In this document: one piece after another, positions 35,649-60,855 of the stretch
How positions within the stretch are numbered: the stretch's first letter is position 1
Layout of the letters: each line of letters opens with the position of its first letter
From: a virus
DNA: 64,000 bases
IMG/VR virus record: IMGVR_UViG_3300045806_000063
Span: 117,109 to 181,108 of that record
Direction: 5' to 3' (one strand)
Notes under the pieces: model-generated
Database searches by the model: none
The model's input: the letters and a program-made list of their open reading frames with translations, nothing else
Told to the model about the DNA's origin: nothing
Translations under genes and position numbers: made by a program

Positions 35649-37556
35649 ATGTCAGAAGTAAGACAAGAAACATTAGGAACAAACCGTACCAGCGGTGATC
35701 AAGTAAAGCAAGAAAGACCAGAAAGAGGTCCTTCTCGTAGACCAATTGAAGATGCCCAAGGTGAGCGTAAACCACGCCCATCTTCCAAGCTGTTTAATCA
35801 CTCCATGGCGGGTAGCAGAAGCACTGCTGATCTGGAAGAGATAGTAAAAACGTTTGAGGCTATCTGCAAACAATATGCAGAAGTTGAGAACATCGTCATT
35901 GAAGTAAAACCAATCAGCCACAATCTGGCAATTCCAGCAATCCTGTTGATCTATCGGGAAGGCTCAAATAAGGTACGATATACCGCACTCTTACCATCTG
36001 GTATGCTGCAGGGCACTATTGCTGACAAAGAAGAAAATGAAAGAGGACAAAAATTTTACACTCCTCGATTTGCAGCAGATCTTTGGCCTGGCCTTATGGA
36101 GGATACAGCGGAAGATCTAATCAACCGTACGTACTTCAATGGTAATGCCCAGAAAGGCTGGATACGACTCTGTAGTGTTATCGTACTGCCAGAGCATTCC
36201 GATTATCGTCAGTTAAATACTGCGATTATCGCATTTGATCATGGAGTTACTGCACTGTTGGCAATTTCTCGTTTGGAGAAAGGTGAGTCTACAGCCTCAT
36301 ACTGCTATCAGGATTTTGAAGATCGGGGCATGAAATTGTCAGGGATTGCTGAAGTCAATCCGACTGGTACAATTCTCAGTACCTTAGGTGAGCCACTGGC
36401 AGTGGATTTCAAATTATCAGTGTTAGCAAAAACTGTAAACAATGGTTCAGAGAATCTGCATGATACTGGCACTAGCATTGCGATAACGACAGTTTATGGG
36501 GCTATCGACTTCCAGCTTCTGCCGGAAGAAGAAGAAGTCAAAACCATTAATCGGGATAAGTTTTACCCAGTGGTAATTCCTAAACTGATCATTAAGCAAT
36601 CAAGTTCGGTTAATCCGAACAACCCAGAAAACACAGATTGCTTGATGTCTCAAATCCTGGGGCTGTTAATGGTCCGTCTCTACTCTGAGAAGCCTGAGAG
36701 ATGGGGCCAGATGTTTGAACCCGATAATGCTTCTCAGAACAACAATATTGGCGCCTTGGGTCTGGTCGGCAATCCGTACGCTGATACTACACTGGAGTTA
36801 GGAGTTCACAATGTTGTGAGTAAAGTCACACATGGCCGAAATGCTGGTGGAAAACTGGTAGCTGATCTACTGAATGAGTATTGTTCAGTAGCTCCAATGA
36901 TTATATTGGAAATTCCAGAAGGTGGTCCTCTTGAGGCCCTCCAGAATTATCTGGTGGAAGAGACTAGTGCAAACTATTCGATTATTGCTAACGAACTGTC
37001 AAGTTTCGTTGGGGTTCCAGATAGCTTTGCTGAAGCCTGGGAAAGTGAAGGTGGACCAGCAAGAATTCCGATCTTGGAATTAGAATCGCCACTGAACTTA
37101 CCATTGATTCGCTACACCGGCCATGCGGAAGCAGGTGGTATTCTCCATGATCCAAATGAAATCGATCTGTTACATCTGTTAAACGTAGGTGTATCGATGG
37201 ATGTTATTCAAGATTATGACCAGTTGCATTCACCGGGTGCAAACCATCCAGCTGAACTTAATCAAAGGTATAGTAACATTAAGCGTGTTCTTGATAATGC
37301 TAAAATCACTGGAACCTCAGTGCAATATTGCATTAATATGGACTGGTTAAACCTGGTAGATGATTTCCTCGGGAGCTATGGCATAACCATTGATTTGGAT
37401 GAAGGTCTGACCTTTGGTAATAATGCTTTCGGTCTGTCACGTGGTGGTAGTAGCAAACATGCGGAAGGTTCTGCTATGTTCCGCCGCAGTGGTCTGTCAC
37501 GGACTCGTACTTCCCGTCCTATTGGTGGTCTGAATTCAAGCAGACGTTCATCTTAA
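35649..37556 (+). CDS. chmA: Chimallin, phage nucleus shell protein (phiKZ gp54-like)
   Basis: The 635-aa product is the same size as known chimallins (about 610-630 aa) and lies directly before the RNAP beta' N gene, as in phiKZ (gp54-gp55). It self-assembles into the flexible lattice enclosing replicating phage DNA. The N-terminal 60 residues are charged and likely disordered, then come two folded domains. The C-terminus (SGLSRTRTSRPIGGLNSSRRSS) is a basic flexible tail, which in chimallins mediates lattice contacts. GC content and CTG/CGT codons point to strong expression. ATG 35649 follows AGAGGTAAGT. The 21-bp EKGESTA segment at 36275 is shared with the gene at 33622. Confidence 0.9.
   Translation: MSEVRQETLGTNRTSGDQVKQERPERGPSRRPIEDAQGERKPRPSSKLFNHSMAGSRSTADLEEIVKTFEAICKQYAEVENIVIEVKPISHNLAIPAILLIYREGSNKVRYTALLPSGMLQGTIADKEENERGQKFYTPRFAADLWPGLMEDTAEDLINRTYFNGNAQKGWIRLCSVIVLPEHSDYRQLNTAIIAFDHGVTALLAISRLEKGESTASYCYQDFEDRGMKLSGIAEVNPTGTILSTLGEPLAVDFKLSVLAKTVNNGSENLHDTGTSIAITTVYGAIDFQLLPEEEEVKTINRDKFYPVVIPKLIIKQSSSVNPNNPENTDCLMSQILGLLMVRLYSEKPERWGQMFEPDNASQNNNIGALGLVGNPYADTTLELGVHNVVSKVTHGRNAGGKLVADLLNEYCSVAPMIILEIPEGGPLEALQNYLVEETSANYSIIANELSSFVGVPDSFAEAWESEGGPARIPILELESPLNLPLIRYTGHAEAGGILHDPNEIDLLHLLNVGVSMDVIQDYDQLHSPGANHPAELNQRYSNIKRVLDNAKITGTSVQYCINMDWLNLVDDFLGSYGITIDLDEGLTFGNNAFGLSRGGSSKHAEGSAMFRRSGLSRTRTSRPIGGLNSSRRSS
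36275..36295 (+). repeat. 21-bp in-frame repeat, copy 2
   Basis: Exact copy of 34182-34202 within chmA, in the same reading frame. Confidence 0.88.
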
Positions 37557-57488: not shown

Positions 57489-58190
57489 ATGAGTGACAAA
57501 CTGATCAGCGGAGAGTGTACGAGAACTCTAGAGAGAATCATAGAACTGGATAAACGTGTTGGAGAATACCAAGTGTTTATGAAGGTTACTCCTGAATTGA
57601 ATGTATCGGCCGGGTATCCATCAGAGTCTCATGAAGATTATCAGAGTGCACTAGAGCGTCTAATGAAAGACGGAGAAGATAAGGAAATCAAATATGATAT
57701 AGATGCTGCCTGGGAAAGGGATAAGGATAAACCTTTCCCAGTTAACCATGGTATATTACTTGATGATGAAAATCTCGAAGTAGAGGTAACTATCCCTATT
57801 GATGGTAGTAACTATGTCCAGGCTAAAGCCCTCTCTTCATTCGCTAATGATGCAATAGAATGTTATCTCTATACCAGATTAAATGAGGAAAATGGAGTAA
57901 GTTTAATACTGGATGCTCCATCGACAGTCAACGTATTAGATGAAGTTGAAACTAGAATAGCCGAAATAGTAGACTGTTATTTCGACGATATAGACTCCAG
58001 TGGAACTAACAGTTGTCCTAACGACATGTATTATTTGGTAAGGGATGCTATGGAAGGATTATCCTTAGTGCGATCAGATATTGATCTAGCATTAGTAAAT
58101 CCAAAACTCAGACAAATGAATAGCGTTTATGTTAATGCTGTGGACTCCTTAACAGCGAATACATTAAATTTTACTTTGACCAAGAATTAA
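57489..58190 (+). CDS. Hypothetical acidic early protein
   Basis: The 233-aa product starts directly after the upstream stop. It is acidic and helical with no recognised motif. It ends the operon at a bidirectional palindrome. Confidence 0.7.
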   Translation: MSDKLISGECTRTLERIIELDKRVGEYQVFMKVTPELNVSAGYPSESHEDYQSALERLMKDGEDKEIKYDIDAAWERDKDKPFPVNHGILLDDENLEVEVTIPIDGSNYVQAKALSSFANDAIECYLYTRLNEENGVSLILDAPSTVNVLDEVETRIAEIVDCYFDDIDSSGTNSCPNDMYYLVRDAMEGLSLVRSDIDLALVNPKLRQMNSVYVNAVDSLTANTLNFTLTKN

Positions 58191-58199
58191 ATAAAAACA

Positions 58200-58236
58200 T
58201 GATATCCATGGCTGCCATTGGCAGCCATGGATATCA
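58200..58236. terminator. Bidirectional palindromic terminator
   Basis: An 18-bp stem with a single-base loop lies between convergent genes ending at 58190 and 58240. Confidence 0.82.
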
Positions 58237-58239
58237 GTA

Positions 58240-58680
58240 CTACTTTTTGTTTTTCATTTTATCTAACTCTTTTGCATCCTTTTTATTTTCATCCTCCATG
58301 ATTTCTCTAGCTATTTCTATATAGTTGTTCAATTCACTAATTGGAAGGTTTAACAGCTCCGTCAGTGAATGATTTGTTGACTCAGGTAGTTTATACTCCA
58401 TTAACACTTTAGCCACTGCACGGCTGACTGTATGCTTATGGAACATAGTTTTTTCAGTGTATGTAACGGTAGCATACGGGTCAGTATTATTAACGAACCC
58501 GAGATACAAGGCTACCTTTTCTTTTATTAATAGCTGGTTAGTTATGGAGTGGACGTGTGCTAAGGTGAATAACTCTTCAAACAAAGCGCCTATTAAGGCA
58601 TGTATTTCTACTGGATGCTCATACCTTACACCAATAAAGCTAAGGTCTAACTGTCGAATCTCCAGAACATAAGGTTGTAA
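58240..58680 (-). CDS. Frameshift extension of the 58647 gene (-1 frame)
   Basis: This frame is open from the T8 run at 58679-58686 to the stop at 58240 (146 codons) and has no ATG near its start; the first usable codon is a TTG at 58584 without a ribosome binding site. Reading begins LQPYVLEIRQ and continues as ordinary protein-like sequence through FEELFTLAHVH to a Lys-rich end (KDAKELDKMKNKK). It is best explained as the C-terminal part of a -1 frameshift product of the upstream gene. Confidence 0.72.
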   Translation of the reverse strand, partial: LQPYVLEIRQLDLSFIGVRYEHPVEIHALIGALFEELFTLAHVHSITNQLLIKEKVALYLGFVNNTDPYATVTYTEKTMFHKHTVSRAVAKVLMEYKLPESTNHSLTELLNLPISELNNYIEIAREIMEDENKKDAKELDKMKNKK

Positions 58681-60308
58681 AAAAAACCAGTTAAGTTTAG
58701 CGGTATCAATTTATTGGCCTCCTCTACATTATCAGATTGACCATGCTCACATACAGGACAAGGAAAGTTTGGAACACCAGCCCAAGTCATAGTGTAATCT
58801 TCTTTAAATGCTTTCACTAAAGCGATCAGTTTAGGTGTAGCCTCTTCATCAGATGAGTAATTTTCAGAGAGCACCTTTAAGATACTTTCCCGGTTATTGA
58901 TTACTTTTGGATTACTTGGATCGTCAAGATCCCTAATCTCAATGAATGAGATATAAGGAGTAAACTTACCCAGAAAGATCTCCATAGCGTATTTGCGAGC
59001 TCTGTTAACTTTAAACTGTTTAAACTGTCCTTCTGACAAGTTTACTGATCTGTTTTGTTCAACCACTGTTGAGATATACTGCATGATACTATTGCACCAG
59101 AGGTTAGCCTCTTGGAAGTATTCAGTCAGTGTTGGTATTTTAAACTTGACCCAGTTTTCAATGTTAAATGATTCGTTACTAAATTTCTTGAACAGTTGAA
59201 AATTGTTAGACGTAGAATTAAAAATATCAAAACGTCTATTTTGGTAGGCTCTTACTTCTTCTTCAGTAACAACTTTCTTGCTCCAGTATACCATATCTTC
59301 TTCGGTGAGCATCTCATACCGACTATTACAGACCAGGTTAAAGTTAAGTTTTGAGTCAGCTAAATAGGTTCCATTTTCATCCCTTTTAGCTTCTATGCTA
59401 TGGGTGCAATCTGGGTTTGTACAAGGGTGCCACACTGGGTAACCCCTAGGGTACATTGCCGCTAAGCCAACTGCCTTCAGTGATACTAAGTCAGTTACCA
59501 GTATTAAGTCTCTGAGCTTATTCTTATCAGATGGCCTGGCATTAAACTCCATTACATTTGAACCAGTAACTTTATCCAGGATGAAGTTAGCAATGATTAC
59601 CTGGAGAACAACATCGTCTCCAGTATAAGTGGAACCTGCAGTATTTCTTCCAGTGCTATCATTAGCCACTGCAAGCATTAGAGATAACGTTGAAGCTTCA
59701 GTTGTGCTGAATGGGCTAATTGATAAAGTAATACCGCTACCCCACAGGGTGGCATTCTCTGACATACTGCCACCCATAGACTGGGAAGCCACTATTTGGG
59801 CTGCTAAACCATCCAGAGTGTTTGGTAATTTTCTTATGTCTTCTTTACGTTTAAAGATACCTAATCGATTGCCATCGTTAGTTGATAAGCGTTGAACCCA
59901 GTTATCAGTTTCAAATACCTTAGCATAATTTTCATTTTCATTGAATACCACACTACCTAGAGTCATTACTTCCTGCAACAAAGTTTTATACCGGTCATGT
60001 TCCTTAGACCCCTCAGGATGTCTACTCATCCGCTCAAGCAAGTGCTCTGCAAATGCATCAATACTGTTAATAGACTCCCGTGACATAGGTAGTGGTGCTA
60101 CAGTCTCCAAGCAGGTGGCAGGATCGATATCTTTTATATACGGAGATAGATGCGGATTAGCTTTCGGTTTAATTACCTCAGTAGCTGGAGCAGCACTAGC
60201 GGCTTCATATACAGGGGCATGTATCGGAGACGGATCAGTATCCAAATTAAACTGTTCTTCTACTGCTACACGGTTAAGGGTAGCTGGTCTACTAGTTTGA
60301 TGTGTCAT
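58647..60308 (-). CDS. Virion morphogenesis candidate with zinc motifs and -1 frameshift site
   Basis: The 0-frame product is 553 aa: a Pro/Ala-rich disordered N-terminus, a helical middle, HPCTNPDCTHS (about 311-321) and CPVCEHG near the C-terminus (about 519-525), a likely zinc-binding site. The end is LTGFFYNLMFWRFDS. At the codons GGT TTT TTT TAC a -1 slip enters a 146-codon open frame, giving a 689-aa fusion. The zinc-ended protein with an adjoining helical frame recalls T4 gp26/gp51 or tail assembly chaperones made by frameshift; this is inference. It overlaps the upstream gene by 17 bp. Confidence 0.75.
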   Translation of the reverse strand: MTHQTSRPATLNRVAVEEQFNLDTDPSPIHAPVYEAASAAPATEVIKPKANPHLSPYIKDIDPATCLETVAPLPMSRESINSIDAFAEHLLERMSRHPEGSKEHDRYKTLLQEVMTLGSVVFNENENYAKVFETDNWVQRLSTNDGNRLGIFKRKEDIRKLPNTLDGLAAQIVASQSMGGSMSENATLWGSGITLSISPFSTTEASTLSLMLAVANDSTGRNTAGSTYTGDDVVLQVIIANFILDKVTGSNVMEFNARPSDKNKLRDLILVTDLVSLKAVGLAAMYPRGYPVWHPCTNPDCTHSIEAKRDENGTYLADSKLNFNLVCNSRYEMLTEEDMVYWSKKVVTEEEVRAYQNRRFDIFNSTSNNFQLFKKFSNESFNIENWVKFKIPTLTEYFQEANLWCNSIMQYISTVVEQNRSVNLSEGQFKQFKVNRARKYAMEIFLGKFTPYISFIEIRDLDDPSNPKVINNRESILKVLSENYSSDEEATPKLIALVKAFKEDYTMTWAGVPNFPCPVCEHGQSDNVEEANKLIPLNLTGFFYNLMFWRFDS

Positions 60309-60855
60309 TAGTTACTTCCTCTTTTGCTTGTTTATATTGAGCTTGGGCTATTGTCAGATTAGCCAGCATTGGAACAATCAGTCTGAGCATATCAGATTTT
60401 AAATTATTCAACCCTATTACTGCTGCATTGAACTTTAATAGTTCTCCACCATCACGAGGTTTACCAGTACCGGAGACTACGATACCTTTAAGTCCAGTAA
60501 AACAATACCGGATATCATCGGTATATGACCTTAATAGTGAAGGTGTAAGACCACTTAAAGCCAGATCTTCTTTTGCAAGATTACTGAATAATGCTGCCAG
60601 CTCAGTGACGACTTGTAAGCTTCTGATCATTTCATTCTTTTCAGAAACTATACCCTCCCAACATTCACCGGATTTGACTGCTCGCACAGCCTGCTTATGT
60701 GTCATACCTGTCCCTCTTTGTGTAAGTTTAATAGTACGTTTATCGATCATTCTTTGTGCTACAGGTCCCCGTTCTAAAACTACTTCATTTGAAGTTAGTT
60801 CAGGGCTAGAGCCCTCTATATAGTCACTAGGGTTATCATCTATTGTGAAATGCAT
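60292..60855 (-). CDS. Hypothetical helical protein upstream of the frameshift gene
   Basis: The 187-aa product is helical and charged (KRTIKLTQRGTGMTHKQAV). It is first in the minus-strand operon and overlaps the next gene by 17 bp. The ribosome binding site AAAGGACAAAAG is upstream. No family recognised; probably late and co-expressed with the zinc protein. Confidence 0.7.
   Translation of the reverse strand: MHFTIDDNPSDYIEGSSPELTSNEVVLERGPVAQRMIDKRTIKLTQRGTGMTHKQAVRAVKSGECWEGIVSEKNEMIRSLQVVTELAALFSNLAKEDLALSGLTPSLLRSYTDDIRYCFTGLKGIVVSGTGKPRDGGELLKFNAAVIGLNNLKSDMLRLIVPMLANLTIAQAQYKQAKEEVTNDTSN

Follow-up and report, generated by a model that had tools for sequence, protein, structure and literature searches.

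A gene of the phiKZ gp77 family, found in the 64,000-nt stretch of virus DNA analysed here (the window), carries a slippery heptamer close to its 3' end, and this site is with high confidence best read as a conserved programmed -1 ribosomal frameshift. We prefer this reading because the site and the second frame are both conserved and both frames show selection. The same frameshift extension appears to be present in every testable relative of phiKZ and appears to have been missed in their annotations, including that of phiKZ itself. A literature search that covered few subscription journals, and after which priority is not certain, gave no published report of a frameshift in phiKZ gp77 or its relatives; the word 'frameshift' is absent from the 2023 core-genome paper and the 2026 jumbo-phage review.

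The slippery site and its reading frames

The minus strand at the site reads ACT GGT TTT TTT TAC AAC CTT ATG TTC TGG AGA TTC GAC AGT TAG, and the window thus has an in-phase heptamer of the X_XXY_YYZ type before the 0-frame stop together with an open -1 frame (Table 1). An earlier note on this DNA had described a slip on T_TTT_TTT, a -1 frame of 146 codons ending at 58240 and a 689-aa fusion, and its coordinates proved right, except that the 0-frame continues for 9 residues beyond the second Phe and not for 10 past the slip. The note had also described the -1 frame as lacking an ATG start; the earliest start codon is a TTG located 34 codons after the slip, and the first ATG is 80 codons in. 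The predicted fusion, ending at 58240, would have a mass of about 77 kDa, and its slip-junction peptide would be FF-LQPYVLEIR, with FFYFGGLEVKPDG as the phiKZ counterpart. The predicted phiKZ fusion stretch spanning the slip contains DMLSTFFYFGGLEVKPDG.

Fourteen heptamers in slip phase lie at most 150 nt from an ORF end among the 70 window ORFs of at least 100 aa. The gp77-type site is the only one of the 14 with a long -1 continuation, which extends 407 nt past the stop compared to 134 nt for the next. The T8 run followed by ACAACC has a single occurrence in the 181-kb record.

Table 1. Features at and around the gp77-type frameshift gene (window coordinates)
Feature	Coordinates	Strand	Evidence
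0-frame gene, phiKZ gp77 family (phrog_4585), 553 aa, two Cys pairs	58647..60308	-	phrog_4585 profile match (E=7.8e-42, residues 28-547); tblastn; AF2
Slippery heptamer T_TTT_TTT, codons Phe543-Phe544	58680..58686	-	T8 run 58679..58686; in phase
0-frame stop TAG, 39 nt beyond slip	58647..58649	-	Direct reading
Predicted extension in the -1 frame (146 codons, from L545 to residue 689 of the fusion and the stop), mainly helical	58240..58680	-	Profile E=3.8e-13; AF2 pLDDT 80
CPxC motif (C517, C520)	58749..58760	-	Invariant in 13-sequence family alignment
Second Cys pair (C296, C301)	59406..59423	-	Invariant in 13-sequence family alignment
Upstream gene, gp78 position, conserved neighbour	60292..60855	-	Overlaps start of frameshift gene; same order in relatives
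Perfect 16-bp inverted repeat, 3-nt loop, then T-rich stretch (minus strand)	58201..58235		Direct reading

The inverted repeat sits directly past the -1 frame stop, between two convergent genes, and is a probable two-way terminator judging from its sequence. With this putative terminator beyond the -1 stop, the -1 frame would lie within the transcript. A slip-phase AAATTTT is also present in the convergent gene on the plus strand (57489..58190), 25 nt ahead of the stop codon, and its -1 continuation of 134 nt passes through the hairpin (58166..58324, +); this site is probably a chance occurrence.

Family and gene neighbourhood

Profile comparison places the 553-aa protein of the window in the phiKZ gp77 family as a divergent member. 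A tblastn search with this protein produced matches in 114 phage records, all of them below 60% identity. The gene order, with an RNA polymerase (RNAP) subunit and gp79 on one strand and gp78, gp77 and a small gene on the other, is the same as in phiKZ-like phages. The neighbours of the gp77-type gene are gp78, gp79, the RNAP subunit and a helicase, and tail-tube or tape-measure genes are not adjacent to it. Since direct searches with the window -1 ORF alone gave no significant match, a profile of its relatives was needed to establish homology. A profile of 102 other -1 parts recovered this ORF (Table 1) as the only significant match among 780 six-frame ORFs, and nine of 13 -1 parts match the known family phrog_12109.

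PhiKZ gp77 and gp76.4 (phrog_4585 and phrog_12109) are orthologous to the 0-frame gene and the -1 domain, respectively, and are found in the same gene order, but their identity to the window is ~20% and public records present them as two unlinked hypothetical genes. In the phiKZ genome (NC_004629), the 218 nt 'intergenic' between PHIKZ077 and PHIKZ076.4 (71685-71902) are open and conserved in the -1 frame.

Elsewhere in the window, a 635-aa ORF (35649..37556, +) is weakly similar to phiKZ gp54, the nuclear shell protein ChmA, with an E value of 0.003 in the genome search and 5e-5 in the pairwise comparison. This ORF is a candidate chimallin, in which case the window phage would be nucleus-forming.

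Conservation of the slippery site and the -1 frame

The homologue set included 27 phage loci and 97 IMG/VR loci, of which 103 were distinct (counting the window), and these formed 22 clusters at 40% identity. In each of the first 12 relatives, the small gene annotated after gp77 occupies the -1 frame with respect to gp77. In all 12, this frame is open back across a T_TTT_TTN located at the same pair of Phe codons, and most of them have an FFYP-like product. Beyond the 0-frame stop, the -1 frame remains open for at least 341 nt in 103 of 103 loci, and the +1 frame reaches 300 nt in none of them.

Conservation of the T run and of both frames, which the earlier note had proposed as a check, was observed in the homologues: both frames are present in all 103 loci, 87 loci have T_TTT_TTN, and in the other 16 the T run is shorter or preceded by G. 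The 87 heptamers are located at the same two Phe codons and comprise 55 TTTTTTT, 31 TTTTTTC and one TTTTTTG. Ten loci (PhiPA3, Noxifer, FLC9 and kin) have G_TTT_TT[TC], whereas six have a five-T run only (GTT TTT or CTT TTT) and still keep the -1 frame. Counted by cluster, the -1 frame is present in 22/22 and T_TTT_TTN in 20/22. The run comprises eight or nine T in 29 loci and seven or fewer in 74, many of the latter being T6 followed by C. Elsewhere in gp77-family coding sequence (162,734 nt), T runs of at least six were observed only twice. The distance from the slip to the 0-frame stop has a family median of 54 nt, compared to 39 nt in the window.

Selection on both frames

Codon choice at the site was evaluated against the same genes using 20,000 simulations. 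In 97/97 sequences the Phe pair begins with TTT (50 expected), and the codon preceding the pair ends in T in 82 of 98 (32 expected); neither count was approached in the simulations. This excess of TTT and of preceding T is a constraint on the nucleotides beyond that on the protein.

Substitution rates (dN/dS and pS) were determined for 24 independent pairs of relatives; the window lineage itself is outside these pairs, as searches of viral and genome contigs yielded no close relative of it. Downstream of the 0-frame stop and ahead of any possible start (299 codons), the -1 frame exhibited a dN/dS of 0.135, compared to 0.134 in the rest of the -1 domain (2823 codons). In the overlap of the two frames pS collapses from 0.65 to 0.23, as for dual coding. 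These ratios indicate purifying selection on the -1 frame, including the stretch that precedes all possible start codons. The median distance from the slip to the earliest start codon of any type is 37 codons; in phiKZ it is 87 codons.

Proposed mechanism of -1 frame expression

According to the proposed mechanism, most ribosomes would continue to the 0-frame stop and release the 553-aa gp77-type protein, whereas a fraction would slip back one base on T_TTT_TTT, with tRNA-Phe re-pairing in both sites, and would synthesize the 689-aa fusion with its mainly helical C-terminal domain. The short and long products would have the gp77 part in common and differ by the C-terminal domain, as do lambda gpG and gpGT. 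We infer that the ribosome is the slipping agent. The variation of Z between T and C, the fixed phase of the heptamer and the 74 loci with runs of at most seven T are best fitted by tandem tRNA-Phe -1 slippage.

No conserved downstream stimulatory RNA structure was found in an analysis of structures other than pseudoknots, and stability near the slip was close to background; a weak excess of stability was observed 40-60 nt downstream of the slip (mean z -1.2 versus a background of about -0.3). Upstream Shine-Dalgarno stimulators showed no enrichment, with SD-like sequences in 3/103 loci compared to 5.2 expected. Counting against ribosomal frameshifting are these negative searches for a stimulator, the T8 run of the window, which is long enough for RNA polymerase slippage, and the six relatives with five T only.

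A polymerase adding a T or dropping two within the homopolymer would also leave part of the mRNA encoding an in-frame fusion. Such transcriptional slippage is in line with the T8 run of the window and the 29 loci with eight or nine T, and a phage RNA polymerase transcribes the late genes of phiKZ-like phages. However, runs of seven T or fewer, present in most of the loci and often consisting of T6 and a C, are shorter than usually needed for polymerase slippage. Moreover, the exact -1 phase of T_TTT_TTN is kept with Z as T or C, as demanded by tRNA-Phe re-pairing, whereas polymerase slippage needs no heptamer phase. This argues against transcriptional slippage as the general mechanism and we consider it improbable, but at the T8 run of the window itself the polymerase may still slip.

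Public records annotate the two frames as separate genes, and a downstream ORF with its own start would use translational coupling or a TTG or GTG codon; TTG and ATG codons do occur further in, and the reading frames overlap. This arrangement is very improbable, as the stretch beyond the 0-frame stop and before the first start is open in every locus and has the low dN/dS given above, and a separate gene would need neither a fixed frame nor a T run. Because the first start lies so far past the slip, independent initiation cannot make the conserved stretch; a separate start of the -1 ORF was rejected, as this stretch precedes any start codon. A sequencing error or a decaying fusion gene can be practically dismissed, even though a T8 homopolymer is error-prone and a nine-T version would fuse the frames, since the same break is found with varied run lengths in 103 separately sequenced loci (including phiKZ, 201phi2-1 and PhiPA3) and a true fusion gene was rejected with 0/103 loci fused. 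The earlier note had named a separate ATG-started gene without a slippery site and a true fusion as sequence findings that would speak against frameshifting, and the 103 loci contained neither.

Predicted structure and possible function

For structural analysis of the predicted frameshift products, the 0-frame and -1 parts were modelled separately with AF2. The model of the gp77 part showed a pLDDT of 80 and a pTM of 0.82, and the model of the -1 part a pLDDT of 80 with a mainly helical structure. A Foldseek search of BFVD with the gp77-part model revealed, beyond its own family, models of T4-like baseplate hub assembly or subunit proteins (prob 0.94-1.00, E 1.4e-3 to 6e-2, TM about 0.5 by target length). 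PDB fold searches produced no match for either part, and profile searches of PDB sequences gave chance matches only. The phrog_150 family, which includes both T4 gp26 and gp51, was matched by four of 67 relatives (best E 3.7e-4). In a profile comparison with the T4 gp26 family only the CPxC...FF C-terminal end aligned, and the similarity was marginal. Pfam, including PF12322, gave no match for the window or 12 relatives, and Pfam scans of 13 members of each part matched no known tail-chaperone family. Two annotators had labelled gp77 relatives gp26-like, and PMC3004832 lists T4 gp26 and gp51 among the hub assembly chaperones.

The models and sequences make the gp77 pair plausible as an assembly chaperone because of the fold match, the phrog_150 matches in four relatives and the CPxC...FF C-terminal end in common with T4 gp26. 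On balance, this analysis favours the short and long gp77 products being a tail or baseplate-hub assembly chaperone pair, in which the gp77 part would hold the client and the extension would recruit the next subunit. The earlier note had recognized the layout of tail or baseplate assembly chaperones; the fold and motif similarity to T4 gp26 makes this suggestion plausible, but neither tail-tube or tape-measure neighbours nor a sequence match to a chaperone family were found. It is also possible, if somewhat doubtful, that the frameshift is real and the proteins serve otherwise, for example as a low-copy virion part or by acting near the RNA polymerase genes. The neighbouring genes are indeed those for RNA polymerase subunits, gp78 and gp79 and do not include tail-tube or tape-measure genes, sequence similarity to T4 gp26 is weak, and part of the work on T4 assigns gp26 to the hub itself (PMC3004832). 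In contrast, the fold match is to T4-like hub assembly proteins, and the phiKZ and 201phi2-1 records flag the neighbour gp79, but not gp77, as structural or MS-seen.

Comparison with gpG/gpGT and T4 gp26/gp51

The gpG/gpGT tail assembly chaperones are known from lambda and from the majority of long-tailed phages (Xu, Hendrix and Duda 2004, reviewed in PMC5009743), and G/GT frameshifting is described as general among long-tailed phages, with T4 named as the exception (PMC5009743). Like gpG/gpGT, the gp77 pair has a predicted -1 slip on a heptamer close to the 3' end of the first ORF, a second ORF of ~150 codons without its own start, and conservation over very divergent phages. Unlike gpG/gpGT, it has a 0-frame protein of ~500 aa (~140 aa in G), a T_TTT_TTN heptamer and no Pfam match, and it is not located beside tail-tube or tape-measure genes. 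Since there is no chaperone-family match and the neighbourhood is different, the gp77 pair is described here as one that would work like G/GT and is not called a member of that family.

T4 gp26 and gp51 are paralogues of one family and could be a gene-duplicate counterpart of the G/GT pair. Their family (PF12322, phrog_150) may resemble the gp77 products in fold, as judged from the predicted models, and has the CPxC motif and an FFxL end in common with them. T4 gp51 looks like gp26 with a C-terminal extension, which is the same short/long pairing as that proposed for the gp77 products; however, the T4 proteins are encoded by two genes with no frameshift. The C-terminal extension of gp51 was rejected as a relative of the -1 domain, with no sequence similarity between them. 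More speculatively, and in our view rather unlikely, the whole phiKZ-like lineage may frameshift a gp26-type hub chaperone pair, with T4 gp26/gp51 representing the same device produced by gene duplication. If this is true, T4 would be no exception in kind to G/GT frameshifting.

With the frameshift, phiKZ and its relatives, among them the nucleus-forming phages that have been studied best, would gain a fusion protein. PHIKZ076.4 probably corresponds to the C-terminal portion of such a gp77 fusion, and records with two unlinked hypothetical genes would lose up to about 87 codons between them. The family-wide T_TTT_TTN site may serve as a ready marker for a probable tail or hub assembly factor, and it would allow a connection between G/GT frameshifting and T4 gp26/gp51 to be tested.
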